A stretch of 64,000 bases of DNA. Source: Crambe crambe (lineage: Eukaryota > Porifera > Demospongiae > Poecilosclerida > Crambeidae). The notes beneath the pieces were generated by a model that saw only the letters and a program-made list of their open reading frames with translations, ran no database searches and had not been told where the DNA came from. The DNA lies in the NCBI GenBank assembly GCA_963924555.1, contig OZ004593.1:5700480-5764479 (forward strand), in the 5' to 3' direction. This document shows positions 1 to 62,441 of the stretch, piece after piece. A program made the translations under genes and the position numbers. The stretch's first letter is position 1. Every line of letters begins with the position of its first letter.

Positions 1-1456
1 GTATCAACTCAAGGTATAGATACTAGCTAGCTATATTTGGTAGTTAGCTAGCTATGTATTCCAGCAGCTATTTCAATCATAGAAGTAGACAGGATCAAGC
101 ATATAAGATATTGATTGATGCAATTACATAGCTAGCTATATATAGCCATTCCTGTTTCTGATAATATAGAGCCAATAACATTCATTTCACAGTCTATCCT
201 GAACGCTACACATTTCTCACTGGTACATCAGTGAATGGATCATCTCCTACTGGAAACTGTTCTAGACTGCAGAATGATAACACAATGACAACCTGTTTTC
301 AACCGCCAAACTCTGGTATTCTGTTTGATGGGCGTGTCCCCACACTCACTGGACTAGATGGTGACATGTGGGCAAGTCAACTACTCACTATAAACACTAT
401 GCAATCCTCGACTAATGTCACCTTTGACTTCACTGATACATCAGGCTATGTTGGGATACAGAGAGTTGAGGTGGTGATGTTCAACTGTCCACAGCGGGGG
501 ATAGCATCTACTACCATTGTCCTCTTAGGGGCCACAGCTAGAGGTCAGCCCTTCAGCACTTTTGTTTCAACCTCTGTTAGTTCTCTCACCTCCTGTGAGT
601 CTCTTGTGAGAGTGTGTTTATCAGGCCATGTATCTCAACCGGTAATTCGTCTACGATTCATCCTTGAATGAAAATACAGTACCAACACATTAGCTAGACT
701 CCTTGTGTATTTATAAGACAGAACTCAGGATCCATGATTATCTTGATATTGATGCAATCTATGTATACAGGATTTGATACAAGAGGCTCTACTCCAAAAC
801 TAAGGCAAAACGTTGAAGCTGCCATCTCCATCTCAGTGGTGTTAACGCTCTTCATTCTCATCATTGTCCTTGTCATTATCATCCTACTTCTAGTCCATCT
901 CTATTGGCAAAAATATCCTATTCGAAAACCCCGAATTCATTCTAGAGAATACGAGCACAAAAAAGGGCACGAAGAGGTGGTAACAGGAAATTTGACTGGT
1001 AAGGAATTTACAAGTCCCACTGCTCAAACAGGAGGGAAGCACTCATCGGTCAACATAGATAAGGATGAATCAAGTCAACCTTACAGCCGCCTTAAGCATA
1101 ATGTGCCACAGAAGGCTGAGATGATACGTCCAATACCTGAGGCTTATTCTCTAATCAGTTTAATTCCAGAAGAAGATGAGTTTGGGTATGTTGTAGACCA
1201 CAAGAAAAAGGATTTACCTACTGAGAAGACTCAGCCAGTAGAGTCAGCACCAAGTGTGGAAGTCAAGAAAGACCAAGCAAGCCGCAAAATGATTAGTGAA
1301 CGAACGATGACTGGAGTGTATGCCAAGGTGGACAAAAAGGGGAAGAGCAAGAGTACGCCTATGCTCGACGACCCATTTGATGATCCGTTTGGTCCTCCTC
1401 CAGTGCCTCAGAAATCAGCTCTACTCTTGGAAGATCTCAAAAGACAACAGCAGTAA
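1..1456 (+). pseudogene. R1: class B kinase-less receptor, 5' partial and internally deleted
   Basis: The window opens inside the signal-peptide exon (1-13, coding VSTQ before a GT donor). The ectodomain exon starts at 193 after a CAG acceptor and reads VYPERYTF. It runs to an in-frame stop at 669-671, because the end of the exon, the stalk and the splice donor are missing. Comparison with R5 shows a deletion of about 190 bases joining the ...ATTCATCCTTGA point to downstream intron sequence. The tail exon (771-1456) is intact: a membrane helix near 795-900, then YSRL, YSLI, YVVD and YAKV tyrosines and a PPPVPQK proline motif, closely matching R5. As it stands the gene could make only a secreted ectodomain of about 160 residues plus signal peptide, or nothing. 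An assembly error is possible. AATAAA follows the tail stop directly. Confidence 0.7.
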
Positions 1457-2356
1457 CTAATAAAGGAAAAGAGCATAGCCATAGTGAATGCTGTAGCTAT
1501 TGTATTGAAAATTTTATTTTCTTGATCTAGTTAGTGAAATTATGATTTAGTGAAAGTTTATCATAACTAGCTAGTTACTTTTGAAGTTTGAATAGCTAAT
1601 AGCTGTAGTTGATGTAGATATCATTGAAACTGAAAGAAGTTCTTAGCTACATATGTAGTTATTTACACTTTAACAACCCTGCAGTAATATTGATAAACAT
1701 GCAAATAGCAATTCTATCATACTAGCGATGATAAATTGTATAGCTAGGTATGTATGCCATGCATGCTGCTCTAATGAGAGTGAATTCCAGGTAGTACTGT
1801 TCCAGCCAGTTCGTTGAAACTGAACACATGTTCAGATGTGAATGCTAGCATCATAGCCAATGGCAACCATGCTCTTGCCAGCATACTTGATGAGTATTAA
1901 AGGCCACAGTATTATAGCTAGCCTATTCAAGACTCATTGTTAACACTATTCACTACACATTGCGTGTTGAGTCAATGACTAATGAATAGCTACCTACTGT
2001 ACATTAGGAATGCTTACACGGACTTCCTTTTTGCAATGTATCTGTCCAGAATTCAGGGTCAACATTATAATTATCGCCCAACTTAAATCCCTACACTTCA
2101 CTCCCCCTTCAGCAATAAGTGAGTCAAGTAACCCCTTACCCGTACCCATCACCAAACTCAGCAATATTATTACAAAACTACTATTCCTACTTCACTCCTA
2201 GGCAATATATATAGGTGTGGTCATTGAAATTTAGGAGGGTTATAGGAGTGATAGGAATGCAGCTAAATCTTATGGCTATCCCTACTTCACTTTTTATTTA
2301 GAAGACATTTTTTGCGCTCATGTTGAATAAGTGTGTATTTTAGTAGTTATAGCTAG
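1457..2356. other. R1 3' flank and R1-R2 intergenic region
   Basis: No gene is seen. Positions 1457 to about 2050 match 17624 to about 18000 (3' flank of R5), so the R1 and R5 3' halves come from one segmental duplication. Around 2265-2325 lies a fragment resembling one arm of the fold-back element at 11961-12216 (shared TATCCCTACTT and TTTTTGCGCTCA words). The small ORF at 2010-2201 has no recognisable features. Confidence 0.6.
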
Positions 2357-3156
2357 GGTACAATTTCAAAGCAGCACTCATTTTGAGTGTCTTCATTCCT
2401 CTTATCTCATCTCAAGGCATGCACTTCAAGTAGCTAGCTATGATAACAGATACACTTTACCATGATATAGCTAAATCTCTCCTCTTCCAGTAGCCTATCC
2501 TGAACGCTACACATTTCTCACTGGTACTTCAGTGAATGGATCATCTCCTACTGGAAACTGTTCTAGACTGCACACAATGACAACCTGTTTTCAACCGCCA
2601 AACTCTGGTGTTCTGTTTGATGGGTATGTCCCCACACTCACTGGACTAGATGGTGACATGTGGGCAAGTCAACTACGTACTCACTATAAACACAACACAA
2701 TCCTTGACTAATATGTCATCTTTGACTTCACTTATACACCAGGCTATGTTGGGATACAGAGAGTCAAGGTCACCTAACTGAGTAGGTTTGTTAAAATAAC
2801 AATTTCGTTTTTTGCAGTGATACTCTGTAGACTCTGTCTCTACCACAAGTTCTCCCCTGTCTGAAGTCTGTGAATGTTCCATTACTCCAGTCATCTTGTC
2901 AGCTGTCATTGCAGTCATTATCACAGCTCTACTGGCCACAGTCATCTTTGTGGTGGTGCGGGTTGTCATCTGCAAGTGCCATCCAAAGTTCAGACCTGGA
3001 GAGACTGAAACAGGAGCCTCAGCAGGAGGGGAGTGGCAGGAGTATGAGCAGGTTGATGTGGAAGGTGTAGCTGTGAGGGGTGGCAATGATGCTAGGTACA
3101 TGGAGGTTGGAGAGCAAGGAGGTATCACCATTGAACTCAAGCATACGCTTAGCTAA
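2357..3156 (+). pseudogene. R2: class C short-tail receptor pseudogene
   Basis: A signal-peptide exon is recognisable at about 2357-2416, but it is 60 rather than 61 bases long (frameshift) and ends in a GC rather than GT donor. The ectodomain exon (from 2494, YPERYTF...) has an indel near 2670 that leads to an early stop at about 2710, and the second half of the domain is gone. The tail exon (about 2867-3156) is still open: a membrane helix (AVIAVIITALLATVIFVVV), CKCHPKFRPG, EYEQVDVEG and YMEVGEQGG. It ends KHTLS, whereas R3 ends AYGTYT. Several independent lesions make a functional product unlikely. Confidence 0.75.
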
Positions 3157-3261
3157 TTAATAGCTAATCTTGTGTGTCAATTTTTACAAGTTTGATAGTG
3201 ATAGCTAGCTATAGATCTGTAGCTAACAAGACTGTATGGCTATGTAGATAAATTACTATTA

Positions 3262-3480: not shown

Positions 3481-3675
3481 CTATTAGCTTATGCACACAC
3501 ACACACAAAACTTGTTCTATGATACGTAACTAACTAACAAGATCATGTCAGTGTCGAATGCTCAAGCAGATGAAGACACATCTCTTAAAAAAATCCACTG
3601 CTGTCATTATGCTTGCTAGCTAGCTAGCTATATAGCTGGTTGTGCTTATATTTTGTGGTATTTTCATTCCTGCAG

Positions 3676-3919: not shown

Positions 3920-3986
3920 GACACCGGTTATAATTTTTAGGTGTGGCTTATAGCTAATGCGCATGCGTGTGCTGCAATTAAGACAG

Positions 3987-4871: not shown

Positions 4872-4902
<31 letters not shown>

Positions 4903-7539
4903 GCTGCCCACCCCTGGATCCAGCCCTGGTTGTGGTCTGACTCAGACCACAAGAATGACACATTGCTATGATCACTGCAATTTTTTTTTTTTGAATTAGC
5001 TACAGTGGAACCTCCAAATAATGGACACATGTGACCCATCCTTTTCTTTTTAAAGAGCCTCTTTGGAGGTTATTTTGTATAGAGTGTATATACAGCTAAT
5101 GGTATTTTTAGATTGTCCTTCGTTGAGAGGCTTGTCCTCTTTCAGATGAGGTTCCACTCAACTTCCTCAGGGATTTTGGGCTGGGAGGGAAACTAAACAG
5201 AGGACCTTTCCAATTCTTGTTGTACATGGCCACAAAATTATAGTAGATTAACTACACTATACATGCACATGGGTTTTCAGGGACGGATCTAGGATTTTTT
5301 TTAAAAGAAAGAATTTTTGAAAACCACGCCCACTTCCCAAGCCACACCCATTTTAATTACTTTTTAATGAGCCTGATAATAATATGAATAGGTAACTATC
5401 TAATGATGGATGATAATGCTTGACTGATGAACTGACAAAAAATATTCATGATAACAGTGCTGAAGGAATCAGAGCATGTTGAATGAGGTGGAAATGATGA
5501 AGCATGTTATTAAGTGAATGGAGTGGAGAAAGTCAGTTTAAAAAGTATCATGCATACAAAAATACAATACATACATACATACTTGGGAATTAAAAAGTAT
5601 CACAATACATACATGAAGGGAAAAAAATTTATGCTAAAAAAAACATATATAGCAGTTTCTGTGAATAAATATCAACACAATCCCTACATCACTGCCTTCC
5701 ATCCTAGCTTTCTCTGAGTCATCCTGACAGACCTTGGATCTTCTTGGGTCAGAATCACTGAATCAACCGTGCTAGACCTTTGAAAAAAACTGGTAACTGA
5801 ATAGAAACGTGATGAGCTTTTAATAGAATAATTCTTTAAAGGTGTTATCATGTAATGAGATGGTGAAGGAGGATTGATGATAACACCTTTGCCTAGATGA
5901 GAGATAACCATCGTTTGAGAATAATTCTTATGCGCATGCGTCGAGGGGAAAAAGGGGGGGGGGGGGTTCGAACGAACTACGTCGAACCATACTAGATCCG
6001 CCACTGGTTTTAATGGTTCTTGATCTATACACACAAGAGACCCTATCCAGATAGAAATATTGCAAATGGGACCAGTCTATTTCCAAGACAAAAAAATCAT
6101 AGATCACATCCCAGGCCCCAATAGATGTCCATGCTTAACATATTTTTTAATATGTTAGGTATTATACAAGTTCAAAGCAGCACTCATTTTGAGTATCTTC
6201 CTTCCTCTTATCTCATCTCAAGGTAGAGCTAATAACAGATGCACAGTACTAACAGGACAATACAAATTCCTTCTCAGTGGCCAAGCTACAAGATTACTGT
6301 AATTCCCTCCTATTCCACAGTCTATCCTGAACGCTACACATTTCTCACTGGTATTTCAGTGAATGGATCATCTCCTACTGGAAGCTGTTCTAATGTTAGT
6401 ATGGATGGCACAATGACAACCTGTCTACAACCAACCTCCAGTGTTCTGTTTGATGGGCGTGTCCCCACACTCACTGGACTAGATGGTGATATGTGGGCAA
6501 GTCAACTACTCACTATAAACACAATGGAATCCTTGACTACTCTCATCTTTGACTTCACTGATACACCAGGCTATGTTGGGATACAGAGAGTTGAGGTGGT
6601 GATGTTCAACTGTCCACAGTGTGGGATAGCATCTACTTCCATCACTCTCACAGGGGCCACTAGAGGTCAGACCTTCAACAATTTTGCTGCAACCTATGCT
6701 AATAGTTCCTGTGAGTGTCTTGTGAGAGTGTGTTTATCAAGCCCTGTATCTCGACCACTAATTGGTCTACAATTCACCCATTACCAGGATTCTGACTGGC
6801 TGCACCTTGCTGAGGTGACCTTCTATGGTGGAAATCCTAACTGTCCACCAAATGTCATCCCCAGTCCACCTACTACAACACCACCTAATATAACACCACC
6901 CACCACAACACCACCACCAGATACAACAACATCACCAACTACAACTGCCATTACCATCACCTCAAATAGTAAGTGCATGTGCATGGTTAGGGTGAGGCTT
7001 CAGCCTCATTATCCTCATTATGACCATAATTCAGCTAGCCTATGACCCTATGTCTGCTAGCTATGTGAGTACAAACTGTGCAGGTGTGCATGCATGCAGC
7101 TGCCTTGTTATAAGGTTATAGCTATAATAATGGCTGTAGCTATGTATATGGTATTCCCTATATATTTTAAAATGGACTGTCACTAGCGCTTATATAGTCA
7201 TTTATATACTCTGTTCCAACCACATGTTCTCCCCTGTCTGAAGTCTGTGAATGTTCCAGTACTCCAGCCATCTTGTCAGCTGTCATTGCAGTTATTGTCA
7301 CAGCTCTACTGGCCACAGTCATCTTTGTGGTGGTGCAGGTTGTCATCTGCAAGTGCCATCCAAAGTTCAGACCTGGAAGGACTGAGACAGCAGGAGGGGA
7401 GGGGCAGGAGTATGAGCAGGTTGATGTGGAAGGTGTGGCTGTGAGGGGTGGCAATGATGCTATGTACATGGAGGTTGGAGAGCAAGGAGGTAACACCATT
7501 GAACTCAAGGAGAATCAAGCATATGGCACTTATACTTAA
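3987..7539 (+). CDS. R3: class C receptor, six-Cys-family ectodomain with short tyrosine tail
   Basis: Proposed join: 3987-4016, 6159-6222, 6321-6968, 7244-7539 (345 aa, phases 0, 1, 1). Exon 1 (MYSKMPTDHE before GTAAGA) is the weakest part; 3999 is an alternative ATG. Residues 1-31 form a signal peptide (ALILSIFLPLISSQ). The ectodomain starts VYPERYTF and keeps the family blocks VPTLTGLDGDMWASQLLTI, RVEVVMFNCPQ and WLHLAEVTFY. It has extra cysteines (CPQCG, CECLVRVC). A Pro/Thr stalk precedes the helix at about 257-283. The cytoplasmic tail of about 62 residues carries EYEQV, MYMEV and a terminal AYGTYT, plausible SH2 sites, but no kinase. Intron 1 (2.1 kb) holds a pogo-like and a hAT-like insertion. 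It is the only class C copy without visible lesions. Ligand and partners are unknown. Confidence 0.75.
5003..5158. mobile_element. Pogo-like miniature element in R3 intron 1
   Basis: It begins TA-CAGTGGAACCTCC and ends GAGGTTCCACT, with stem-like internal words about rows of GTCCTT and CCTCTTT. The same family lies downstream of several kinase genes (for example 40364-40541). The last base of the inverted end has decayed. Confidence 0.5.
5278..6006. mobile_element. Non-autonomous hAT-like element (729 bp) in R3 intron 1
   Basis: The termini CAGGGACGGATCTAG and, inverted, CAGTGGCGGATCTAG differ at two positions. The flanking duplication is GTTTT (5273-5277 and 6007-6011). No transposase ORF is present. 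The ends match the style of the element at 10867-13168, which also has a 5-bp duplication. Confidence 0.7.
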
Positions 7540-13168: not shown

Positions 13169-13180
13169 TAGCCACTTCGT

Positions 13181-15832: not shown

Positions 15833-17623
15833 ATGAGACTAACTAGCTATAGTGGATGGGTAATTCCCAAGGTGAGTTTCACAAGTTATTATGGCCCTTA
15901 ATGATTGTGTCCATAGGAAACTGGAGCTTTCTTATTTTTCCTGAGTATCTTCATTCCTTTCGTATCAACTCAAGGTATAGCTAGATACTAGCTAGCTGTA
16001 TTTGGTAGTTAGCTAGCTATATGTATTCCAGCAGCTATTTTCAGTCATAGAAGTAGAGAATTTCACAAATATCAGTATTATTGATGTGCCGTATCAATAC
16101 AACAATTAGCTATTCCTGTTTCTGATAACTTGCTAGCACTAGAGCCGATTAATGTATGGACATTCATTCACAGTCTATCCTGAACGCTACACATTTCCCA
16201 CTGGTACATCAGTGAATGGATCATCTCCTACTGGAAACTGTTCTAGACTGCAGAATAATAGCACAATGACAACCTGTTTTCAACCACCAAACTCTGGCGT
16301 TCTATTTGATGGGCATATCCCCACACTCACTGGACTAGATGGTGACATGTGGGCAAGTCAACTACTCACTATAAACACAATGGAATCCTTGACTAATGCC
16401 ATCTTTGACTTCACTGATACACCAGGCTATGACAGAATAGAGAGAGTTGAGGTGGTGATGTTCAACTGTCCACAGTTAATAGCATCTACTACTATTGTCC
16501 TCCTAGGAGCCACAGCTAGAGGTCAGCCCTTCACCACTTTTGCTTCAGGCTCTATTAGTTCCCTCACCTCCTGTGAGTCTCTTGTGAGAGTGTGTTTATC
16601 AGCCTTCGTTTCTCGACCACTAATTGGTCTACAATTCACCCTTGACCAGGACTCTGACTGGGTGCACATAGCTGAGGTGACCTTCTATGCCAGAGGTTCC
16701 ACCTGTCCACCAAATATCATCCTCAATCAACCACCACCTACAACACCACCACCAGATACAACACCATCAACTACAACTGCCATCTCGAATGGTAAGAATG
16801 CCATTTTGAATGGTAACTAAGTGATGCATGCATGCATGAAAATACAGTACTAGCTAGACTCCTTGTGTATTTATAAAGACAGAACTTGGGACCCATGATT
16901 AAGAAATTATCTTGATGTTGATGCAAATCTATTACAGGATTTGATACAAAAAGCTCTACTCCAATACTAAGGCAAAATGTTGAAGCTGCCATCTCCATCT
17001 CAGTGGTGTTAACACTCCTCATTCTCATCATTGTCCTCGTCGTTATCATCCTACTCCTAGTCCATCTCTATCAGCAAAAATATCCCAATCAGCGTGATAC
17101 CACAAAACCCCAAACTCATAGAGAATACGATCACAAAAAAGGCCATGAAGCAGAAAATTTGACCGGCAAGGAATTTACAAGACCCACTGCTCAAACAGGA
17201 GGGAAGCACTCATCGGTCAACGTAGATAAGGATGAATCAAGTCAACCTTACAGCCGCCTTAAGCATAACGTGCCACACAAAGCTGAGATGATACGTCCAA
17301 TACCTGAGGCTTATTCTCTAATCAGTTTAATTCCAGAAGAAGATGAGTTTGGGTATGTTGTAGACCACAAGAAAAAAGATTTACCTACTGAGAAGACTCA
17401 GCCAGTAGAGCCAGCACCAAGTGTGGAAGTCAAGAAAGACCAAGCAAGCCACAAAATGATTAGTGAACGAACGATGACTGGAGTATATGCCAAGGTGGAC
17501 AAAAAGGGGAAGAGCAAGACTACGCCTATGCTCGACGACCCATTTGATGATCCATTTGGTCCTCCTCCTGTGCCTCAGAAATCAGATCTACTCTTGGAAG
17601 ATCTCAAAAGACAACAGCAGTAA
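15833..17623 (+). CDS. R5: class B kinase-less receptor with tyrosine and proline motifs
   Basis: Proposed join: 15833-15859, 15917-15974, 16174-16791, 16938-17623 (462 aa, phases 0, 1, 1). The start exon MRLTSYSGW is inferred from phase and the donor. The signal peptide spans residues 1-28 (AFLFFLSIFIPFVSTQ). The ectodomain carries six cysteines (in NCS, TTC, FNC, TSC, RVC, STC) and ends in a short Pro/Thr stalk. The helix lies at about 253-276. The tail of about 185 residues has SSQPYSRLK, AYSLI, GYVVD and GVYAKVDKK tyrosines, the acidic DDPFDDPFG, then PPPVPQK, a likely SH3 ligand. SSQPYSRL and VYAKVDKKGKSK resemble the kinase juxtamembrane segments SSQVYSRL and VYAEIDKLKKKSK, so the tail probably derives from that region. 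Canonical ITIM spacing is absent. AATAAA follows the stop. Confidence 0.8.
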
Positions 17624-20687: not shown

Positions 20688-20724
<37 letters not shown>

Positions 20725-44715: not shown

Positions 44716-45085
44716 TTTTTAGTGTAGAGAGTGGGGCTGAGAAAGAGATTCATGATGAGAGAGGGGTGGGGCTCAAGAGTTAGCTAGCGCGTGCCGTGGT
44801 ACAAGTGATGACCTTATTTTTGCAAAATGACACCTAGGGGATCAGTTACTTTGTTTCTCTCTGGTCCACTGTCATAGCTATGACTAATTTCTCTGGTGCC
44901 ATAAACATGCATGCAGTAGCACTAATACTGCATAATTTATTGCACCTTCAGCTAGCAATGTGATTTGTCAGTCAGTCAGTGTGTGTATTAAAAAGAGGTC
45001 ATAGCTAGGTGTATAAGAGGAATCCATATTGCTATGTACGTACGTAGCTAGCTGGTGGCCACGCCCCGTTTCAAACTGTTATGAG
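44716..45085. other. K4 3' flank up to the oxidase gene
   Basis: It carries the GC-rich block (about 44726-44815). Positions 44820-45010 match the 3' flank of K5 (about 48955-49065). The match stops at AAAGAGGTCATAG (about 45005), just before the oxidase gene, suggesting a rearrangement point. Confidence 0.55.
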
Positions 45086-46579
45086 ATGGCTATGTTAGCT
45101 AATCTGCACCTAAGGAGTTGGCTGATTCCTCGTGGGCTCATTTCTCTGGCAAGGCGCTGCTACAGCTCTGATAACATTGACAAGTGTCTCCAAAGCTTGT
45201 CGGACATTTCTGTTACCCCTGGAAGCGAAGCTTACCAAGAAAGCACCAGGATTTACAATCCAGCCTTTGCTCGAGAACATCCTTCTTTTGTGTCCCTACC
45301 AAACTGTGTAGAAGACGTTCAGAGATGTTTGCAAGTTGCCTCTTATTACCAAGTCCCATTAACTGTCAAATCAGGAGGCCACTGTTTTGGTGGTTATTCA
45401 ACTATTGACAGCCGTGGATTCGTTGTTTCGTTAAGCAACATGAAAGCTATTGAGTGGTCTGATGCTTCAGTTAAGACCCAGGCAGGAGCCTTGTGGAATG
45501 ATGTCTACAGTCAAATGGATGACAGTGTTCTTGTAGTTGGTGGCTGTTGCCCTTCAGTTGGAATAGGAGGGTATGTTCTGGGGGGTGGCTATGGTCTGTT
45601 GTCACGTCGGTTTGGTCTTGCTTCGGACAATGCTATCAGCATGACCATGGTGACTGCTGATGGAGAGGATGTTGTGAAGGCAAGCCCAGATGTGAATTCT
45701 GACTTGTTTTGGGGCCTTTGTGGGGGTGGAGGGGGAAATTTCGGGGTCCTAGTTGATGTGACATTCAAGGTTCATCCTGCTCCTGCAAGTTTTACGTGGA
45801 GTTCCTTCAGCTTCCACACCTCAGAGGAGTCGGAGCAAGCACTGAAGTTAATTGCACAGTTCTCACAGGAGATACCAGATGGGCTGAATGTTGATATGCT
45901 TATTCACAAGCTCACTGGTTACAACCAGTTGGTAGTAGACACGGTCTACTCCGATGAAGAGATTGAACAATTTCCACTCCTCGAAGGCCTGAAAAAAATT
46001 GTAGGTCGACACTATCACAATTCCCAGACCTATACTCTGTACAAGGATCTTTCAACACAGTATGCTACTCGACATGGCTATGTTCGATTTGAGAACGAAC
46101 CAGTCTACATGAAGGGGTCTTTTGTAAATGACTTTGCTCCTCAATTGGCTGAGGAGTTAGTTGAGCTCATTCTACCACAGGATCCTCTAGGGATTATTGA
46201 GTTTGTTAATGTCGGTGGACAGATAGCTAGCAAAGAACCCTCCTATTCTGCTTATCCTCATCGATTGGCCCAGTACAACTGCTACACATATGGTCAATTC
46301 CACAACAAGTCTGAGTGGGAGACAGTTTTTGGCTTTGCCACTAAAGTCCATTCTTTGTTGGCTGCAGGAGGCTATGCTAAAGGATCATATGTAAACTACA
46401 TGGATTGTTTACTCTATGATTGGCAAGAGAAATACTATGCCGCTAACTATGTGAAGCTTTGTGAACTAAAGAAGAAGTGGAACGCAGTTGATAATGGAGG
46501 TCCATTACATTTTTTACAAGAAATTGGGTCGTCCTATGAGCCTGTGATCAAAGAGCCTCCGGCACTGAAAAATAGCTGA
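45086..46579 (+). CDS. Berberine-bridge-type FAD-dependent oxidase, probable mitochondrial presequence
   Basis: A single-exon gene, 497 aa from the ATG at 45086. The frame is open further upstream to 45029, but without a better ATG. The FAD-binding domain shows KSGGHCFGGYS with the expected flavin-linking His (H99), GGCCPSVGIGGYVLGGGYG with the second linking residue (C155), and WGLCGGGGGNFG, the pattern of bicovalently flavinylated oxidases. The C-terminal berberine-like part has YVNYMDC, YYAANYVKLCELKKKW and NGGPLHFLQEIG. Such enzymes oxidise alcohols, sugars or alkaloids with O2; the substrate here cannot be read. The first 25 or so residues (RSWLIPRGLISLARRCYSS) are Arg-rich without acid residues and end in an R-x-Tyr/Ser site typical of mitochondrial processing. 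It has no introns, unlike its neighbours, and is unrelated to the receptors. Horizontal origin or retroposition are both possible. Confidence 0.9.
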   Translation: MAMLANLHLRSWLIPRGLISLARRCYSSDNIDKCLQSLSDISVTPGSEAYQESTRIYNPAFAREHPSFVSLPNCVEDVQRCLQVASYYQVPLTVKSGGHCFGGYSTIDSRGFVVSLSNMKAIEWSDASVKTQAGALWNDVYSQMDDSVLVVGGCCPSVGIGGYVLGGGYGLLSRRFGLASDNAISMTMVTADGEDVVKASPDVNSDLFWGLCGGGGGNFGVLVDVTFKVHPAPASFTWSSFSFHTSEESEQALKLIAQFSQEIPDGLNVDMLIHKLTGYNQLVVDTVYSDEEIEQFPLLEGLKKIVGRHYHNSQTYTLYKDLSTQYATRHGYVRFENEPVYMKGSFVNDFAPQLAEELVELILPQDPLGIIEFVNVGGQIASKEPSYSAYPHRLAQYNCYTYGQFHNKSEWETVFGFATKVHSLLAAGGYAKGSYVNYMDCLLYDWQEKYYAANYVKLCELKKKWNAVDNGGPLHFLQEIGSSYEPVIKEPPALKNS

Positions 46580-47031
46580 CTCCGTAGCTAGGTTAGCTGG
46601 ACTATTTTTATTAGTTTGTATCATTTTCTTATATATACTCTTGCTCTGGGGATTGGCTGAGGGTTGGGCTAGGGGGGCTGGAGCCCCCAGAGTTCAACCA
46701 TGAACCTGGCACATCCTGTGGGTAACCAAAGTTGTTTCCTGTGGGTGAATAATCCTGATGGCATGTGCTTTTCAAGAGCAAGGAGAAATGTTCTGGTATA
46801 TTTTGTGTAAACTGAATGGCTATTAGTGAAGTGAGTTAGCTACATGTTTATACAAGCACTGTTGAGAACATAGTTGTAAGTATTAACATTTACCAGTCCA
46901 GCATTTGGAAAATCTGTGTAGTTCTATTATAATCACTGGAAGACTTCCTACAACAACATACTCTGCAAATATTAGTTGAATAATATACTGGCTAGCATAA
47001 TATAGTCATCTTTTTTCCCCTTGTTCTTTAG
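46580..47031. other. Oxidase 3' flank joining K5 intron sequence
   Basis: From about 46750 (AATAATCCTGATGGCATGTG) the sequence matches intron 3 of K3 (about 37735-37999), up to the TTCTTTAG acceptor. Positions 46660-46700 contain GGGGGGCTGGAGCCCCC, a short palindrome. Nothing coding is seen, and no K5 exons 1-3 are present. Confidence 0.6.
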
Positions 47032-48852
47032 CTGATACTTCTTCAACTACTTCCTCCTCCTCTTCCAACACTCCAGCATCAACGTCAATGCCTCCACCAC
47101 CATCACCACCAGCACAATTGAATGCTGGAATCATGGCAGGAGTGATAATCGTCATCGTCATCATCGTTATAATCGTACTTGTGGTTATTATCATCTTTTT
47201 AGTTTGTAAGAACAGAAAATATCACATGAAGTTCAATAACAGTATCAGTATAGGAGGACCAGTTAGTGGTACCTTGGAGAAGATGCGAGATGGGGATCAA
47301 GCCGGGGGGACAGGATACTCCAGAGGTGCTGCTTATGAAGATATTGATCAGGTCAAAGGTGGTTCTGGTATCAAAGGTGCTGGAATTTACGAGGATATGG
47401 ATGAAGTGGACCCTAGTAAGAGTCGGTATACTGGAGAAGCATACTCAACAATCAATGATACTCGAAGGAAGGACTCCTTGAGTCAAATATACAGCAAATT
47501 AAAGTGGGAAGAAGAGAGGCAGTTTGGTGGCCAAGTAACAGACAACAGCTATGCAAAACTCAATCGTGATAAAGAGCTCATGAGTCACTCCACTTTAGTC
47601 CAAGCAGCCGATAACCCCATTTACTCTAATCCTGATCATGAGAGGGCTACTTCACCTCCGAGGGTCTATGCTGAAATCGATAATCCCACAAAAGCACAAT
47701 GTGCTTCTGCAGTTGGTATGCAAGATAACCCTCTCTATGCCTCAGCTGATATGGGTGGCCAGCCTTCACCCAGAGATGTGTACACTGAACCTGCGTCAAT
47801 GAACAATCAAATCCAAGCAGTAATATTTATGAAACAATATACGACGAGGCCAGACTCAAGCCAGCTCTCTTCATGAAAGAAACCAATGTCAAAGAGGTCC
47901 AAAGTTCAGATGACCTTTATCCTTATTCCTCCATATACACTGTTCCTGTTGTAAGCACTGACGAGAAACCACTGGAAGTCACCAAACGAAATATACAAGA
48001 AATAGAAGTCTTGGGTTCTGGGAATTTCGGTAAGGTCATCCTTGCAAAAACAGTTGGATTGAGTTGCCAAGATTTGAAAATGAGTGCATCCACTGATATG
48101 AATGTGATGATCCAAGTAGCTGTGAAGATGCTCAAGTCAAATGCTAATTCTTCCATCAAGAATCAGTTTGAGAAGGAATACCGCTTCATGTCTCGCCTCA
48201 ACCACCCTAATGTTGTTTGTCTTCTCGGAATCTGTGTGACAGACATGCCCTTTATCATGATGGAGTACATGGGGAATGGAGATTTGAACCAGTTTCTTCA
48301 GGGTTACTCGGCCATTGTCGGTGGGGACTCCCCTAAATATGGAGAAATTACCAAAGCCGTACTCATCTACATCTCCACACAGATAGCAGATGCTATGAGA
48401 TACCTCGCTTCGAAGAACTTTGTCCACCGTGACCTCGCCACACGTAATTGCCTTGTTGGTGAAAATTCCATGTCAAGAGCTCAGATTTTGGGATGAGTCG
48501 TAGCCTCTATGAATCTCATTACTACATCATCCAAGGACATGCCATTCTGCCTATTCGCTGGATGGCCACAGAGTGTTTCTACGGAAAATTTTCAGCCAAA
48601 ACAGATGTTTGGGCTTTTGGTGCCACCATGTGGGAGATCTTCAACCTCTCCAAGTATGAACCGTACTACGAAATGGGAGACAGGGAGTTGGTTCAAGATG
48701 CGTGCAAGGGCTACACCCGCAAGCTGTTGACTCGTCCAAAAGACTGTCCTCCTGAGGTGTACAATATCATGACCATGTGCTGGGCCCACGAACCTGCTCA
48801 TCGAGCAACATTCGAACAGCTCTATCAAGGACTGTCCTACTTAGATAAATAG
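47032..48852 (+). pseudogene. K5: receptor tyrosine kinase remnant lacking exons 1-3
   Basis: Only the last exon survives (acceptor TTCTTTAG at 47031). It includes the stalk, the Ile/Val helix, a K3-like juxtamembrane region (VYAEID, NPIY, NPLY) and a K3-like kinase (TKRNIQE, SCQDLKMS). A deletion near 47795 shifts frame after VYTEPA and stops at 47874-47876. A second lesion, a one-base loss near 48465 in GGTGAAAATTCC, splits the kinase just before the DFG region. GSGNFG, AVKML and HRDLATRN remain readable in pieces. The signal peptide and ectodomain are replaced by the oxidase gene upstream. No start exon, three defects: a pseudogene. Confidence 0.85.
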
Positions 48853-50935: not shown

Positions 50936-51264
50936 ATGTTTGAGGTAAGATTATGGGCCTGTTTGGGAAATGGTAGCTGTCATATTAGAAGCTGCATAAT
51001 ATTGGTCTCTAGCTCTGATCATGTCCTAGTTCATCCATAGTTCTATAGAAGATAGCTACCGGTATGTAAAGCTAGTTGCTTTCTGGTCTGATAATGGTTA
51101 TCTTAGTGCACTGATTAACTTTTTATTGTTTATTGTTCCATAGGGGTACAAGTTTGGAATAGCACTCTTTCTGAGTATCTATCTTCCACTCATCTCATCT
51201 CAAATAGGTAGCAATATTCTACTTTAATAATAGCTATATCAGAGAGCGCGGTAGCGCTCTCTAT

Positions 51265-53453
51265 CAGTCTAATCGCCAGCGTCGGCGAGGCCCATAGGGC
51301 TAATACAACTTTAATTGCACAGACACGCACTTTTATCACTCACCAGTTTACGGAAGTATCCGGAGAGAGTGTTTGTGGTCAAATTCACTTCCTTTAGTTG
51401 TAGTGCCGAGATTTTCCCTTTACAGAAGGCATAAAGCTGCCTGTAGCTGCACCTTGCACGGTACTAACTCCACTATAATTTTAATAGCAAATGCAGCTGC
51501 ACGCGCGAAGCAGCTGCTACATTTTTGTGGTCTTTGATATTGTGATAATCAATCGTGTTGTGGGCTGTGACATTTGTATTTCACACTTCCTGCCACTACT
51601 TCGAAGGTATGTAGAGCTCCTCCTATTATAAGTGGCATGTTATGCGTAATAAAATTAACTGTCCATTAGTGCATGTCTGTAATACAGCCTTTGGTTTATA
51701 GAGCCTTTGAATGCTACTCATAGCTTGAAGCTATACTGTTCATTGAATATAATGGCCTACTGAATAAGAATGGTGTGTTGGTATTAGCTATTAGCTAGCA
51801 GTAGTCCATCCAAATCTTTTACTATAGCTATACACACACTATAGCAATGACAACCCTTGCCCATGGACCATGTCACTCTGTAAGCAGTGATCATTCAGAT
51901 ACACACTTAAAAATATTGATTGACTATTAATCATCATGGGACACTTTCAGACACGGATACCTCTGCCAGGCTTCCATGAAGCAAATCAAAAGGAAAACCC
52001 TTAGCTAACATTAAAAATTTCCATCCTTGATGGCTGCCCAACCAAGCAGGTAGCTACGAACAGAAACAATTTATTGTATTCAGAACTGTAAAAAACTGAC
52101 ATACAGCACCACCAATCTTTTAATACCCCAGGCCAACCCCAGATAAAGTTGATATTCTCTCTTGATAGGTACAGATGTGTATCACATACGTTTGATACTA
52201 TTATGTTTCCTGGGAGTAAGATTTTCATCCTAAAGATGCTATAGGTTCCTGAATCAGAATGCCCTTATCTCTCTTTGAACACTATCACAGAAGAGCTACT
52301 ACCACACTTAATGTCTGTACTCCTTTTTCATGGGATCGAGAATACCAGTTTTCTCTCTACATTCTATCATTTTTCTCCTTCATCAATAATGAAACACTGT
52401 GTGGTTCACTAGGACAAGTGACAGCAGATCCTGCCTCCCCTTCCCTCCAACTTGTTGGCTGTGGATATTTTAGAGTATATTTATCATGATTTCAGCAATC
52501 TTCACCAATCACCCTCTTTTATTCAATGAAATCAGAGTCTCTCCATGACTTGCACTATCATCAGGAGAACAGTGGGAGTGAGCAGACATGACCATGCCCT
52601 CTACCGAAGCTCTAAAGCTCCACTGGAATCGCTCCCTGTGTATTAGAGATGTGGCATCATGCAACTTCCAACGACATTGATCTTCCAGGTAAGTTAGCTG
52701 TTTGAGAAATGTAATTAAGATTCGATTTCTAGCTCACTGACACACATACATTTACCTATATAGCTGGAAATGGTTGGATGGAAAAGTCCAAAGTGTCTTA
52801 GACGTTCCTGAAAACATGGCAAGAGTTCAGGATTTTGTTTTCAATGGGTGTGGCTGAAAATTGACAAGCATACAAATGTGGACCAGGATGCAAGTGTGTC
52901 AACTGTTTAAATAGCTATAACAACAGTCTCAATCATCCTGAAGCAGTGATGGAGCTGTAAACATTGATGGACTTCAGAAACAGAACGAAGAATTGATAGG
53001 AGATAATACAGAGAGTGATGAAGAACATGAACTAAATGAAAGACAAGATGAATGGGTGTGACATTTGCATTTTGCAATACTTACATCCACAAAATTGCTA
53101 CTGTATATTATACAAGCAATACTACACAGGATCCAGCTAGAATCTGAAGTGTCCACTGCTAGGAACGAAAATTCTAGCAAGAAACACTATGACGTGATGA
53201 AACTAGCCAAGCAACAGAGGCAACATATAGCTGAATTTTCTGCCTGTTTATAGCTTGCAACAATGTTTACTGTGCAGTAATACTTACCTAGGTTTCATCT
53301 TTAGCAGAAAGTGCTCTCCATATTGCTTCTTCGGCTTCTAAGAGGCAGTTACAGTCCATACAAAACACCAGCACAATTTCTGTTTTTCGACTACAATTTA
53401 TGACGTCATCGCTAATACGTGGTAATTAATTACGTCCACTGGCGATTAGACTG
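51265..53453. mobile_element. 2.2-kb DNA element with 15-bp inverted ends and empty-site proof
   Basis: The perfect terminal repeats CAGTCTAATCGCCAG (51265-51279; inverted 53439-53453) are flanked by CTAT on both sides (51261-51264 and 53454-53457). The paralogous repeat at about 62838-63302 reads CTCTCTATGTAGGG straight through, giving the pre-insertion site. No intact transposase was found; see the cysteine-rich fragment at 52840-52962. The superfamily is not assigned. Confidence 0.85.
52840..52962 (+). pseudogene. Fragment of a CXC-type cysteine-rich protein inside the 51265-53453 element
   Basis: One frame reads FNGCG and, after a stop and shift, YKCGPGCKCVNCLNS. The C-x-P-x-C-x-C-x2-C-x-N spacing is that of tesmin/TSO1-like CXC motifs, also common at the C-termini of transposon-associated proteins in invertebrates. 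Only this fragment is legible; the rest of the element has short ORFs. Confidence 0.45.
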
Positions 53454-54417
53454 CTATGTAGGGATGACCTATGACCCTATATAGGACTAATACTAGATGC
53501 AGTTGGATTTACTCAGAAAATAGTAAGTTGTAGCTGCTATGACTGCTTACCCTGTATTTTATGCACATTCTTATCATGCAGGAGAATTTTGGAGACTGAA
53601 ACCGTCAACACGGAAGAGCAATAAAAGCGTGCATATTCATGATTTCTTATTCTTCATGTTCTTAATCATCATATTCTTCATAATAATGGCACGATGTGGA
53701 GAAAAATTGGGCCGCGTTATGGCTATGTTCTATATATGAATGTGTAGCATTTTACCCCGACTAGTGCAGTGTGGCATCGGTTTAGCCTCTAGTTCACTCA
53801 GAAAAAAGCCGCTCTCTTAGTACAGGGACTATACAACCAAAGAAATTGAACATAACGCGCATGCGTAACAAACGATAGTTGCCATGACTCTCGAAGCAAA
53901 AAGCCATTTCGACCATAGAGATAGAGCAGAATAATATAGTCAGCTCTAAGCTAGCTATTACTAGCTAGAACTGTAAGGACAGCGTGTAAATTTTGAATGG
54001 TAGACCTAAGCTTACTCGAGCTCATAATCTGCCAGTGAGTTGTGCATTATTTAGAAACGAAAGCAGGCTCCCTAGCCTGCCCTAGCCCTAGCCCTTCTCC
54101 CTTCTTTTATCTATGAGCTCAGCTAGTTAGAAGATTTTAATTCAGGCTTGGTTGTGATCCAGGATTGCAATACAAGAGCTATGAAAATTGAATTTCATGA
54201 AACAAGAACAGCTACAGTTACCTTGCCTCCTTCACCTACCACTCTATGAACCAGCATAACAATTAATATTAAAAACAGTTATAATAAGGAGGAAAAAAAA
54301 CACTAACTACTTCCTACTGAACAATAATCATAACAAGCAGCTATAATGAGGTATTCATAATAGATGCTCTAATGACCTCCTGCAAAAAGAATTCTATTTT
54401 TTTAAAAAATAAAAGAA

Positions 54418-54688
54418 ACAAGTAAAGAAAAAAACATTTATTCTAATAAATGAAGGTGATGTAGGGATGACTAGTTAACTGGTCAAAAAAGAGTTGGAAC
54501 AAGAGCTGAATAGATGACTGCAAGGATGAAGTCGAATCCAGGTGCAGTCACTAGTGTGACGTACCCACATTCGACTTCATCCTTGCAGTCATCTATTCAG
54601 CTCTTGTTCCAACTCTTTTTTGACCAGTTAACTAGTCATCCCTACATCACCTTCATTTATTAGAATAAATGTTTTTTTCTTTACTTGT
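54418..54688. repeat. Long near-perfect hairpin element
   Basis: Arms of about 120 bases beginning ACAAGTAAAGAAAAAAAC and ending CTTTACTTGT, with AGAGTTGGAACAAGAGCTG inverted in the other arm and about 25 bases of loop. It lies about 90 bases before the ectodomain exon of K6. A recent fold-back insertion. Confidence 0.85.
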
Positions 54689-57634
54689 GTAACTATAGCT
54701 GTGACTTTAATCTGCATATTTAAACTTTTATAATTATTGATAGCTACATAGTTGACTATAATATCCCTAATTCCACAGTAGTCTTTCCTGAACGCTACAC
54801 ACTCATCAATGGTACATCAGTGAATGGATCATCTCCTACTGGAAGCTGTTCTGATGTTACTATGACTGAAGGGACAACCTGTCTCCAACCAACCTCCAGT
54901 GTTCTGTTTGATGGGCACATCCCCACACTCACTGGACTAGATGGTGACATGTGGGCAAGTCAACTACTCACAATACAAACAACAGCACGATCAACACCTA
55001 ATCCTAATGTCTTTGTTGCTAATGTCATCTTTGAATTCAGTGTCACTGAGACACCAGTTTATAGAGTTGTTGAGGTGGTGATGTTTAACTGTCCACAGTG
55101 GGGGATAGGAACTACTAGGATCGCCCTCACAGATGCCATTGCTATGAATCAGACCTACTTTCATTTAAATTCAACTGAGATTACTAGTTCCCTCACCTCC
55201 TGTGAGTCTCTTGTGAGAGTGTGCTTATCAGCCAGAGTTTCTCGACCAGTAATTCGTCTACAATTCATCCTTGACTGGGACTCTGACTGGGTGCACCTTG
55301 CTGAGGTGACCTTCTATACCAGAGGTTCCACCTGTCCACCAAATGTCATCCTCAATCCACCTACAACACTACCACCAACTACACCTACAACACCATCACC
55401 AGATATAACACCCTATACTCTACTACCAACATTAGCAACTGTTTCATCAGATAAAATATCATCAGGTACAATAATTATGATAATATGGTAGCTAATGCCC
55501 ACAAAATAATTATCATCCTCAATCTAATAATACCATCACCAGCTAATAGCTATAACATTAGGAATTATGGCTAGTAAAAGTTACGTGTCTAGTTCATGAT
55601 GATGGTTCTTGAGTGCATTGTTTTTCTATCTATATTTAGCAGTAGCTAGTGATATTACGTGAGAGTTCCATGTAGCTATATTTTAATTGTCTAGCCAACG
55701 TAGCAAAGTATGAAGAAGTGGCCAACTCATATTACCATAGCTACAGTAAAAGCTGTACAGGGGTAAAGCTCCCCCCAAATTAATATTCTAAGCTTTCCCC
55801 CGCCCCCAGAACACTGCTCTACTATGGATTTTTGTATGATAAGACCAGGCTCAAAAGAGTAGATTACTTCCTCCTACTCCTCTTTTAACACTACAGCACC
55901 AATATTACCAACATCAGCACCAACAACATCAGCATTATTAAATGCTGGAATCATTGCAGGAGTGATAGTAGTTGTTGTCGTCATCATCGTTATAATCGTA
56001 CTTGTGGTTATTATCATCATTTTAGCTTGCAAGAACAGAAAATATCATTTCAATAAAAGTATCAGCGGAAGAGGACAGGTTGGTGGTACGTTTATGAAGA
56101 TATTGATCAGGTCAAAGGTGGTTCTGGTGTCAAAGGTGCAGGAGTATATGAGGATGTGGATGAAGTGGACCCTAGTAAGAGTCGGTATACTGGAGAGGCA
56201 TACTCAATGGTCAATGATACTCGAAGGAAGGACTCCTCGAGTCAAGTATACAGCAAATTAAAGTGGGAAGAAGAGAGTCAGTTTGGTGGCCAAGTAGCAG
56301 ACGACAGCTATGCAAAACTCAATCATGATAAAGAGCCCATGAGTCACTCCACTTTAGTCCAAGCAGCCGATAACCCCATTTACTCTAATCCTGATCATAA
56401 CAGGGGTACTTCACCTCCGAGGGTCTATGCTGACATCAATAATCCCACAAAAGCACAATCTGCTTCTGCAGTTGGTATGCAAGATAACCCTCTCTATGCC
56501 TCAGCTGATATGGATGGCCAGCCTACTGAACATGGTGCAGCTGCCGTCAATAAACAGTCAAATCCAAGCAGTAATATTTATGAAACAATATATGATGAGG
56601 CCAGACTCAAGCCAGCTCTCTTCATAAAAGAATCTAACATCGAAGAGGTCCAAAGTTCAGATGACCTTTGTCCTTATTCCTCCATATACACTGTTCCTGT
56701 TGTGAGCACTGACGAGAAACTGCTGGAAGTCACCGAACAAAATATACAAGAAACAAAAGTCTTGGGTTCTGGGAATTTCGGTAAGGTCATCCTTGCAAAA
56801 ACGGTCGGATTAAGTTGCCATGATCTGAGTATGAGTACGTCCACTGATACAAATATCATGATCCAAGTAGCAGTGAAGATGCTCAAGTCAAATGCCAATG
56901 CTTCCACCAAGAGTCAGTTTGAGAAGGAATACCGCTTCATGTCTCGCCTCGACCACCCTAATATTGTTCGTCTTCTCGGAATCTGTGTGACAGACATGCC
57001 CTTTATCATGATGGAGTACATGGAGAATGGAGATCTGAACCAGTTCCTTCAGGATTACTCAGCCATTGTCGGTGGGGACTCTCCTAAATATGGAGAAATC
57101 ACCAAAGCTACACTCATCCACATTTCCACACAGATAGCAGATGCTATGAGATACCTCGCTTCAAAGAACTTTGTCCACCGTGACCTCGCTACACGTAATT
57201 GCCTTGTTGGTGAAAAATTCCATGTCAAGAGCTCAGATTTTGGGATGAGTCGTAGCCTCTATGAATCTCATTACTACATCATCCAAGGACATGCCATTCT
57301 GCCTATTCGCTGGATGGCCACAGAATGTTTCTATGGAAAGTTTTCAGCCAAAACGGATGTTTGGGCTTTTGGTGCCACCATGTGGGAGATCTTCAACCTC
57401 GCCAAGTATGAACCGTACTACGAAATGGGAGACCAGGAGTTGGTTCAAGACGCATGCAAGGGCTACACCCGCAAGCTGTTGATTCGTCCGAAAGACTGTC
57501 CTCCTGAGGTGTATGATATCATGATCATATGTTGGGCCCACGAACCTGCTGATCGAGCAACATTTGAACAGCTCTATCAAGGACTTTCCCACCTGAGTGA
57601 TAAATTTCTTAACTTCTTTGATCTTGCACTGTAA

Positions 57635-59089: not shown

Positions 59090-62000
59090 ATGTTCGAGGT
59101 AAGATTATGATATCCTAGTTCATCCATAGCTACGTAGATGATTCAGTTGCTTTCTGGTCTGACAATTTTGATAGTAAGAATTACTTGGCTAATCGGTTGG
59201 TTTAGTAAGAGCAAAGCTAATTATATCTTAGCCTATAAGTACTGACATAATAGCTAGCTTAGTGCACAGATTAACCTCTGTAGCTTCTATTGTTTAATGT
59301 ATAGGGATACAAGTTTGGAACAGCACTCTTTCTGAGTATTTTTCTTCCACTCTACTCATCTCAAGGTATAGAGCTATGACCTTCATCTGAGAGGATTTGC
59401 ATATTTGACCTATAGCTATAACTGTTATAGCTAGTATTGATGTAGCTACAGCTACAGAGCTGACTATAACATTTTTCATTTCTCACAGTCTATCCTGACA
59501 GTTACTCAATTCCCACTGGTGCATCAGTGAATGGATCATCTCCTACTGGAAGCTGTTCTAATGTTAATATGGTTGACACAAGGACAACCTGTCTGCAACC
59601 AACCTCCAGTGTTCTGTTTGATGGGCATGTCCCCACACTCACTGGACTAGATGGTGACATGTGGGCAAATCAACTACTCACTATAAACACAATAAAATCC
59701 TTGACTATTTTCATCTTTGACTTCACTGATACACCAGGCTATGACAGAGTAGAGAGAGTCGAGGTGGTGATGTTCAACTGTCCACAGTGGGGGATAACAT
59801 CTACTTACTTTATCCTCACTGGGGCCACTGCTAGAGGTCAGCCCTTCAGCAATTTTAATTCAATCCCTATTAGTTCCCTCACCTCCTGTGAGTCTCTTGT
59901 GAGAGTGTGTTTATCAGCCAACGTTCCTCGACCACTAATTGGTCTACAATTTGCCCTTGGCCAGGACTCTGACTGGGTGCACCTTGCTGAGGTGACCTTC
60001 TATACCAGAGGTTCCACCTGTCCACCAAATATCATCCTAATGCCACCACCACCTACAACACCACCACCAACATCACCAACTACAACACCACCACCAACAT
60101 CACCAACTACAACTGTTTCATCAGATAAAATATCGTCAGGTATAATATGATGATTAATTATCATGGTGATTAATGCCCACCCAAAAAAATCCTCAATCCA
60201 CTTAACTAGGGGAATCTGCCCACATTGCACTTTTGCAGCACATTATGAAGAAACTGTTTGGAGGAACGTTCATCAGCAAATTTTGCATGTATGCATGATG
60301 TCACCAGTGACTAAAGTAGCTAGCTACTCAAGAACCATCATTATGAAGTGGACACCCCATAAGTTATGCAGGTTCTTATAAACTATAGTGACTTGCTCTC
60401 CTCTTATTGAGAGCTCATGCTTAATCTACTAGCTACTAGCCATAATTCCTAATGTTGTAGCTATTGAGTTCGACAATCGACCCTTCTCTTGTGCTGTTTT
60501 TCTATCAGTATTTGTAGTAGTAGTGGTATTATGTGAGAGTTCCAGGTAGCCTAAAGTCTAGCCAATAATATTAGCAAAGTATGAAGATGTGGGCAATTCA
60601 TACGACCAGCTACAGTAAAAGCTGTACAGAGTTCTATCTGCTGGGGGAGGAGTTCCCAAATATTCTAAGATTCCCCCCCCCCCCCCCCCCCCACTCACCA
60701 CTAAGACAGAAGCCTGCTGTACTACATGCTATTTATATGATAAATATTAATCGGGTTTTCGTATGATAGCTAAGACCATGCAGATTCGAAAGAGTAGATT
60801 ACTTCCTCCTTCTCCCCTTTTAACACTACAGCACTAACATCACCATCATCACCATCAGCACCATCACCACCATCACCACCATCAACATCAACAACGTCAG
60901 CACCACCAAATGCTGGAATCATTGCAGGAGTGAATGTAGTCGTTGTCATCATCATCATCGCTGTAATCATACTTGTGGTTATTATCATCTTTTTAGTTTG
61001 CAAGAACAGAAAGTATCACCTGGAGTTCAATAACAGTATCAGAGAAGGAGGACAGATTGGTAGTACTTTGGACAAGATGCGAGATGGGGATCAAGCCGGG
61101 GGGGTGGGATACTCCAGAGGTGCTGTTTATGAGGTTATTGATCAGGTAAAGGGTGGTTCTGGTGTAAAAGGTGGTTCTGGTGTAAAAGGTGGAATATATA
61201 TGGATGTGGATGAAGTGGACCCAAGTAAGGGTCAGTATACTGGAGAGGCATACATGGTCTATGCTGAAATCGATAATCCCACAAAAGTACGACCTGCTTC
61301 TACATTTGGTATGGAAGATAACCCTCTCTATATCTCAGCTGATAGGGGTGACCAGCCTTCACCCAGAGACGTGTACACTGAACCTGAACAGCCAAATCCA
61401 ATTTATGAAACAATATACGACGAGGCCAGACTCAAGCCAGCTCTCTTCACGAAAGAAACTAATGTTGAAGAGGTCCAAAGTTCAGATGACCTTTGTCCTT
61501 ATTCCTCCATATACACAGTTTCTGTTGTGAACACTGACGAGAAACTGCTAGAAGTCACTGAACAAAATATACAAGAAACAAAAGTCTTGGGTTCTGGGAA
61601 TTTCGGTAAGGTCATCCTTGCAAAAACAGTTGGATTAAGTTGCCAAGATCTGAGAATGAGTCCATCCACTGATACGAATGTGATGATCCAAGTAGCAGTG
61701 AAGATGCTCAAGTCAAATGCCAATGCTTCCACCAAGAGTCAGTTTGAGAAGGAATACCAGTTCATGTCTCGCCTCAACCACCCTAATGTTGTTCGTCTTC
61801 TCGGAATCTGTATGACCAACATGCCCTTTATCATGATGGAGTACATGGAGAATGGAGATCTGAACCAGTTCCTTCAGGGTTACTCAGCCATTGTCAGTGG
61901 GGACTCCCCCAAATATGGAGAAATCACCAAAGCTACACTCATCCACGTCTCCACACAGATTGCAGATGCTATGAGATACCTCGCTTCAAAGAACTTCATC

Positions 62001-62441
62001 CACCGTGACCTCGCCACACGTAATTGCCTCGTTGGTGAACATTTCCATGTCAAGATTTCAGATTTTGGGATGAGTCGTAGCCTCTATGAATCTCATTACT
62101 ACATCATCCAACGAGAGCATGCCATTCTGCCTATTCGCTGGATGGCCACAGAGTGTTTCTATGGAAAGTTTTCAGCCAAAACGGATGTTTGGGCTTTTGG
62201 TGCCACCATGTGGGAGATCTTCAACCTCTCCAAGTATAAACCATACTACGAAATGAGAGACATGGAGTTGGTTCGAGATGCGTGCAAGGGCTACACCCGC
62301 AAGCTGTTGACTCGTCCAAAAGACTGTCCTCCTGAGGTGTACACTATCATGACCACATGTTGGGCCTACAAACCTTCTGATCGAGCAACATTTGAACAGC
62401 TCTATGAAGGACTGTCCTACCTAGATAAAATTTTTTTATAG
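59090..62441 (+). CDS. K7: receptor tyrosine kinase with shortened juxtamembrane region
   Basis: Join: 59090-59098 (MFE), 59305-59365, 59489-60139, 60832-62441 (776 aa). Signal peptide TALFLSIFLPLYSSQ; ectodomain VYPDSYSIP, SCSNVNMVD type, six cysteines. The stalk contains a repeated PPPTSPTTT, then a second Ser/Pro array from the last exon. The helix is at about 270-296. The juxtamembrane region lacks the same 80 residues as K4 and carries a duplicated GGSGVK; one position reads VYEVID where others have VYEDID. The kinase is complete: GSGNFG, AVKML, HRDLATRN (FIHRD, Asp633) and DFG. The activation segment has one extra residue (YYIIQREHAILP against YYIIREHAILP in K4 and YYIIQGHAILP in K3). 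With K4 it forms the closest pair in the array. Confidence 0.88.

Follow-up and report, generated by a model that had tools for sequence, protein, structure and literature searches.

The window, a stretch of 64,000 nucleotides of the Crambe crambe genome (C16:5700480-5764479), contains an array of receptor genes and gene remnants. Searching it with ectodomain, tail and kinase queries, we found 12 units, all on the + strand (B1, C1, C2, C3, B2 and K1-K7), in agreement with an earlier note on this DNA that had counted at least twelve genes or remnants on one strand. The three kinds of tail that it described are all present, with seven kinase, two class B and three class C units, and the final stop codon ends at 62441. 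Ungapped 300-nt blocks repeat 7 or 8 times in the window at identities of 62-97%, a recurrence that excludes chance. Five units (K1, K3, K4, K7 and B2) yielded complete models, which we defined as having an open frame, canonical splice sites and an ectodomain exon that is in phase 1 at either end. The other seven (B1, C1, C2, C3, K2, K5 and K6) are damaged, among them all three class C copies. The common exon plan proposed earlier therefore stands in the five complete models, and the wording "genes or remnants" was right, yet with 7/12 units damaged some do not have all the shared exons.

The class B and C units come first. B1 (1-1456, +) is a remnant in which the end of the signal exon reaches position 13, the ectodomain exon (about 193-671) is ended early by a stop and the class B tail exon occupies 771-1456. 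C1, another remnant (2343-3156, +), retains a signal exon with a GC instead of a GT donor, a truncated ectodomain and a class C tail. In C2 (6162-7539, +), the signal exon runs to 6222 without an ATG, the ectodomain exon (6321-6968) is open and the class C tail extends to 7539; compared to a sister at C16:5695764 this unit has a 9-bp deletion, because of which the usual tail acceptor is lost, and an in-frame substitute AG is present. C3 (13904-15317, +) is a remnant with frame breaks in the ectodomain and the start of the tail. The complete gene B2 (15833-17623, +; 466 aa) has exons at 15833-15871, 15917-15974, 16174-16791 (ectodomain) and 16938-17623, the last of which encodes the membrane segment and the class B tail. 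From 18556 to 25510, similar short open frames follow on both strands at intervals of about 3 kb; a repeat search at a length of at least 150 found no repeat in this interval, and the series perhaps represents copies with many indels.

The kinase units occupy the remainder. K1 (27288-31194, +; 901 aa) is complete, with exons at 27288-27342, 28058-28642 (ectodomain) and 29129-31194, the last encoding a membrane segment, a tyrosine-rich juxtamembrane segment and a DDR-like kinase. K2 (31986-35278, +) is a damaged kinase gene whose ectodomain has no middle part and whose frame breaks ahead of the kinase. K3 (36568-39840, +; 842 aa; exons 36568-36576, 36820-36880, 37006-37623 and 38000-39840) and K4 (41341-44715, +; 790 aa; exons 41341-41349, 41562-41622, 41751-42404 and 43067-44715) are both complete. 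The damaged unit K5 (47001-48852, +) consists of a membrane segment, juxtamembrane segment and kinase with two frame breaks, and the ectodomain query found no ectodomain for it in the window. K6 (50936-57634, +), also damaged, has an open ectodomain near 54784-55440 and a broken tail frame, and a first exon at 50936 together with a signal exon running to about 51204 probably belongs to it. K7 (59090-62441, +; 776 aa) is complete, with exons at 59090-59098, 59305-59365, 59489-60139 and 60832-62441. Lying between two of these kinase units, at 45017-46579 (+), is an intronless open frame for a FAD-binding oxidase (PF01565 plus BBE), with 9p1p_A as its top PDB match (E 3e-39) and EncM as the next.

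The signal exon that had been described for these genes is present, but it is preceded by a phase-0 acceptor and the start codon mostly lies in a tiny exon further upstream. Among the ten signal exons that fall entirely within the window, only that of K1 contains an in-frame ATG, so the other genes must start upstream. The sequence ATGTT(C/T)GAG|gtaag occurs at five sites (31986, 36568, 41341, 50936 and 59090). The first coding exon is nine bases long in K3, K4 and K7 and 39 nt long in B2, and each ends in phase 0; given this short first exon, the signal exon is the second coding exon in these four genes, while K1 starts within it. For the class C units, no upstream start exon was found in the window. 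The characterization of the ectodomain as a six-cysteine module was correct for 24 of the 35 family I sequences counted, a set that includes the divergent ones, but the remainder have 7 or 8 cysteines, and across 39 ectodomains four cysteine columns are invariant (residues 22, 34, 98 and 134). The ectodomain exon is phase 1-1 in all five complete models, just as the claim of phase-1 introns had it.

Across the genome (143,139,886 bases, 119 contigs), at least 152 matches were listed for the family I ectodomain query and at least 151 for a query from the divergent family II, the two sets overlapping. The two families are related, being about 31-38% identical with E values down to 1.1e-14. Merging by hand gave at least 166 ectodomain loci, fragments included, with at least 108 on the plus strand of C16, at least 5 on its minus strand, at least 31 on C21, at least 12 on C12 and at least 10 elsewhere. 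The next tail within 5 kb was of class C at 44, class D at 32, class K at 19 and class B at 4 of the 108 listed C16 plus-strand loci, with none at 9, an assignment made for these 108 of the 166 listed loci. Along C16 the tails are ordered as a C/B block, then a kinase and a D block, and lastly a mixed stretch that holds duplets; the window spans the border of the C/B and kinase blocks. A class B tail query had five matches, on C16 only, and a K-type juxtamembrane query found the seven units of the window and one weak match in the genome. Class C tails are present on C21 and at other places too.

The fourth tail class, D, has a long tail in which LYAQV-type sites are repeated. At all four loci that were read whole (L029, L030, L031 and L033), the ectodomain, membrane segment and tail lie in one open frame, and class D tail pieces gave 87 matches in the genome search, with many long open frames. 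The number of LYAQV-type repeats varies strongly among class D genes (L033 607-2880; L029, L030, L031). For class C, 11 of the 24 models in the 264 kb ending with the window are complete under rules that were lenient in donor choice and needed an ATG within the signal exon, so class C genes with an upstream start exon were scored as incomplete. Kinase-domain remnants of 37-62% identity were seen shortly behind class C tails at C16:5540618, 5596819-5597730 and 5627045 (L013, L018 and L021), and C genes may once have had an adjoining kinase gene. At C16:5511639, 5545041, 5617738, 5649462 and 5656892, a further and weaker class C tail match (43-58% identity) follows the main match at a distance of some 350-600 bases. 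More kinase-domain matches with long open frames are located at C16:4976850-4980570 (-) and 5421987-5432529 (+).

The proposal that kinase and kinase-less tails in this cluster share a common ectodomain was upheld, and indeed the ectodomains make up a single pool. None of the tail classes represented at least twice formed a clade in a tree of 39 ectodomains, and constraining C, K or D as a clade was rejected (p-AU 0.0009, 0.009 and 0.007, respectively) in a set of 31 ectodomains from which 4 family II, 3 divergent (L033/L036) and 1 unlabelled sequences had been dropped. Tail labels were more clustered on the tree than shuffled labels (C 13/500, K 15/500, all together 4/200), which counts against free exchange between the classes. 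Synonymous divergence (pS) was 0.144 between classes and 0.136 within them, a difference reached by 85 of 500 shuffles (30 ectodomains). Among the best 22 BLASTN matches per gene, the cross-class matches of B2, K3, K4 and K7 start at the start of the ectodomain exon and stop near its end, and some run tens of bases into the adjoining intron (K3 to 37702, K4 from 41718). K1 is made of two different blocks, again judged from its best 22 matches: 27234-28632 resembles class C genes, with 78-81% identity over about 1.5 kb that includes the intron, and 30055-31250 resembles other kinase genes at 89-91%. With this class C-like 5' part and kinase-type 3' part, we interpret K1 as a recombinant in which the tail was exchanged at the border of the two blocks. 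Furthermore, adjacent informative sites in the ectodomains (83 sites) conflict less than permuted ones, with only 2 of 1000 permutations as low, and fewer conflicts between neighbouring sites are a sign of recombination. The nearest neighbour differs in each third for 26 of 32 ectodomains. The ectodomains are mosaics that have been homogenised between members, probably by gene conversion, and unequal crossing-over may also be a process behind their exchange.

The ectodomains and tails evolve very differently. Pooled pairwise dN/dS (Nei-Gojobori type, codon bootstrap in brackets) was 0.85 (0.66-1.09) for 32 family I ectodomains, compared to 0.25 (0.15-0.41) for 21 C tails, represented by their final 87 codons, and 0.26 (0.17-0.38) for five kinase domains, that of K6 being from a damaged gene; the juxtamembrane segment gave 0.40 (n=4) and the D tail 0.51 (n=3). 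The contrast weighs more than the values themselves because the pairs are non-independent and recombine, and the ectodomain value is below 1. Kinase-less tails are under purifying selection, the constraint on the C tail being equal to that on the kinase. In ectodomain loops picked after looking, dN/dS was 1.37 versus 0.58 elsewhere in the ectodomain. Variability is highest at sites such as 107, 109 and 111, which lie on one predicted strand, and 121, 122, 124, 125 and 126, which lie on the next, and our guess from the predicted strands is that they could form a single exposed face.

Eight family II duplets, each a C gene with a K gene next after it, occur among the loci listed; of the 13 K and 11 C genes of this family, five and three, respectively, are outside these duplets, and seven loci have no assigned tail. 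Family I tail classes occur as blocks, not duplets. Six of the eight duplets were compared, one C ectodomain being partial and frame-broken, and their ectodomains are 81-88% identical within the duplet (mean 83.6), versus a mean of 65 (51-86) for other C-K pairs. When all six were permuted jointly, the real pairing alone was as high (1/720). However, the own partner is the top match for only 3/6 duplet C ectodomains, and the match is partly explained by the existence of two ectodomain subtypes. The duplet 5953321/5955281 fits this pattern, both members being 58% identical to one query, whereas 6013832/6015668 is an apparent mismatch (84 and 60% to one query).

We also scanned the tails for signalling motifs. 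Strict ITIMs occur in 1/21 family I C, 2/6 family II C, 1/3 other C, 0/5 B and 2/4 D tails, and in 0/4 K and 4/4 family II kinase juxtamembrane segments, but their number is not above chance in any of these seven sets (never fewer than 5/100 shuffles reach the count). ITAM spacing was found in 0/39 kinase-less tails and 1/4 K juxtamembrane segments, and the class C membrane segment has no charged residue. Signalling through ITIM/ITAM was thus rejected, with the motifs not above chance in the shuffle test. In contrast, Yxx[ILV] is in excess in 7/7 tail sets, with none of 100 shuffles reaching the observed number. YxxM is found in 0/21 family I C, 4/6 family II C and 3/3 other C tails, and NPxY in 4/4 K and 0/4 family II K juxtamembrane segments. 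We considered whether the juxtamembrane segment of the kinase genes gave rise to the B and D tails and rejected this, as the matches are only short or composition-biased and suggestive at most (B-D, E 2e-4 over 15 residues; D-K1, E 1e-4; D-family II K, E 0.005) and the B tail had no match to K1; the motif scan for tail origin missed class D because its pattern demanded trailing residues.

The K1 ectodomain matched no Pfam family, a sequence search found no PDB match for the ectodomain, and none of the 39 ectodomains matched a Pfam Ig domain or PF00754 (F5/8C discoidin). The commonest Pfam match, to Myf5 (11/39 ectodomains, best E 0.0036), was judged to be chance. Foldseek on its own yielded mixed matches with low TM-scores (TMq 0.23-0.44 among the 50 listed), and the ectodomain is predicted to be a beta-sandwich, a fold class that discoidin-type domains presumably share. 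F5/8C itself has two exon-level matches in the genome, none on C16. The top PDB matches of the K1 kinase are DDR1 and DDR2 (E about 4e-75), and the kinases of the other K units share 87-94% identity with that of K1 over aligned pieces. The kinase activation segment contains YESHYY, which fits the YxxxYY motif of the DDRs. Since a wider kinome study places DDR among families emerging in bilaterians (PMC8662651), we use "DDR-like" for the best match and not for orthology.

We give roughly a 50% probability to the reading that the window marks the edge of an expanded receptor system of large size, in which variable ectodomains are shared and the mix of tails sets the output. The fast-evolving ectodomain in its phase 1-1 exon is the outward module, pooled by exchange mainly of that exon. 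The membrane-plus-tail part differs between members, supplying a DDR-like kinase in K, a short conserved tyrosine tail in C, a tyrosine/proline tail in B and a long LYAQV-type repeat tail in D. From the gene sequences we infer that kinase and kinase-less members may have identical or overlapping sets of variable ligands, which could be molecules from microbes or from sponges of another genotype. The ligand would gather the members, the kinase could then phosphorylate its own tyrosine tail and, in trans, those of its neighbours, and the output would be set by the mix of tail classes, with C, B and D acting as docking or dampening partners. Of this, the gene anatomy, the shared pool, the constrained tails and the duplets are seen in the sequences, and common ligands, phosphorylation of neighbours and a role in recognition are what we infer. 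The complete K, B and C models, the constrained tails, the fast recombining ectodomain pool and the fact that tail classes are not clades favour this explanation, as do the recombinant K1, the eight duplets, the Yxx[ILV] excess and the DDR1/DDR2 match. It is weakened by the clustering of labels on the tree, the 3/6 own-partner matches, the apparently mismatched duplet 6013832/6015668, the genes outside duplets, the family I blocks and the damaged class C units of the window.

A DDR-like kinase family might instead have diversified for adhesion at tissue contacts or for matrix sensing, with kinase-less members as co-receptors and with no self/non-self or immune role. The kinase itself, the absence of an immune motif and a predicted fold class that takes in carbohydrate-binding (and presumably discoidin-type) domains are all consistent with this. 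However, an ectodomain dN/dS of 0.85, with 1.37 in the post hoc loops, a recombining pool and well over 100 loci would in our judgement be unusual for matrix sensing, and we find the idea rather doubtful. The common ectodomains and linked C-kinase duplets could also belong to decoys or dominant negatives, that is, kinase-less members that absorb ligand or block kinase dimers and whose tails serve trafficking or turnover only. Trafficking motifs are possible in these tails, but C tails are constrained like the kinase and tyrosine sites are above shuffles, which suggests a tail function and makes decoys unlikely.

If a receptor kinase had expanded by ordinary birth and death, with kinase-less genes as truncated leftovers, this would account for the damage to 7/12 window units and the kinase remnants behind some upstream C genes. 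The C tail dN/dS of 0.25 and the 11/24 complete C models nevertheless disfavour kinase-less copies as debris, and since there are many long open D frames, and further C tails on C21 and at other places, we regard this account as improbable. In protocadherin clusters many exons are spliced over a long range to few common tails, and a phase 1-1 ectodomain exon would permit the same joining of many ectodomains to few tails here. Such splicing is very improbable given that an own tail lies within 5 kb at 99/108 listed C16 plus-strand loci and that in class D a single open frame runs through both ectodomain and tail.

Within the preferred reading of shared ectodomains and mixed tails, we tentatively put forward a narrower proposal, which may well prove wrong: that the sponge has a paired-receptor system of its own, in which a recombining beta-sandwich pool sits on kinases and kinase-less docking receptors, with duplets, and serves self/non-self or symbiont recognition. 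If so, paired-receptor logic, with one binding module and several competing tails, would have arisen in a sponge too, in a form where one partner is a receptor kinase and canonical ITIM/ITAM motifs are absent. Allorecognition or symbiont recognition in sponges would then become open to molecular study, and the balance of ectodomain exchange versus tail choice could be followed as a natural experiment.

These genes share a kinase domain with DDR1 and DDR2, as well as NPxY in 4/4 K juxtamembrane segments, but differ in having an ectodomain without a recognisable discoidin domain, and the kinase likeness is one of best match. Plant receptor kinases and kinase-less receptor-like proteins are also clustered and have related ectodomains, although their domains and kinase class are unrelated. 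A Geodia cydonium receptor tyrosine kinase with an Ig-like domain is named in an allorecognition review (PMC12018476); compared by description only, it is likewise a sponge receptor tyrosine kinase and differs in its Ig-like domain. In text searches that did not reach most subscription papers, we found no title describing a receptor system of this kind. Paired receptors, as set out in PMC5701461, have homologous ectodomains on differing tails, opposite signalling roles and overlapping immune-cell expression, with an inhibitory ITIM versus an activating ITAM or charged membrane segment. In the same source, the ectodomains of Siglec-11/16 are homogenised between members; near-identical ectodomains on different tails, linked genes and tails that are kept apart are common to that pair and the sponge set (PMC5701461). 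In contrast to Siglec-11/16, the sponge set has a receptor tyrosine kinase partner, no canonical ITIM/ITAM and no Pfam Ig domain. The likeness to paired receptors suggested by the earlier note thus fits in layout and evolution, the ectodomains being homologous across tails and homogenised, but failed on motifs, as the 39 kinase-less tails have no ITAM, ITIMs are not above shuffles in any set and the class C membrane segment is uncharged. Because of this, and because the discoidin domain is unrecognisable, we place the sponge system under neither paired receptors nor DDRs. The analogy with vertebrate paired immune receptors is partly supported, and would be one of a similar arrangement built from other parts.
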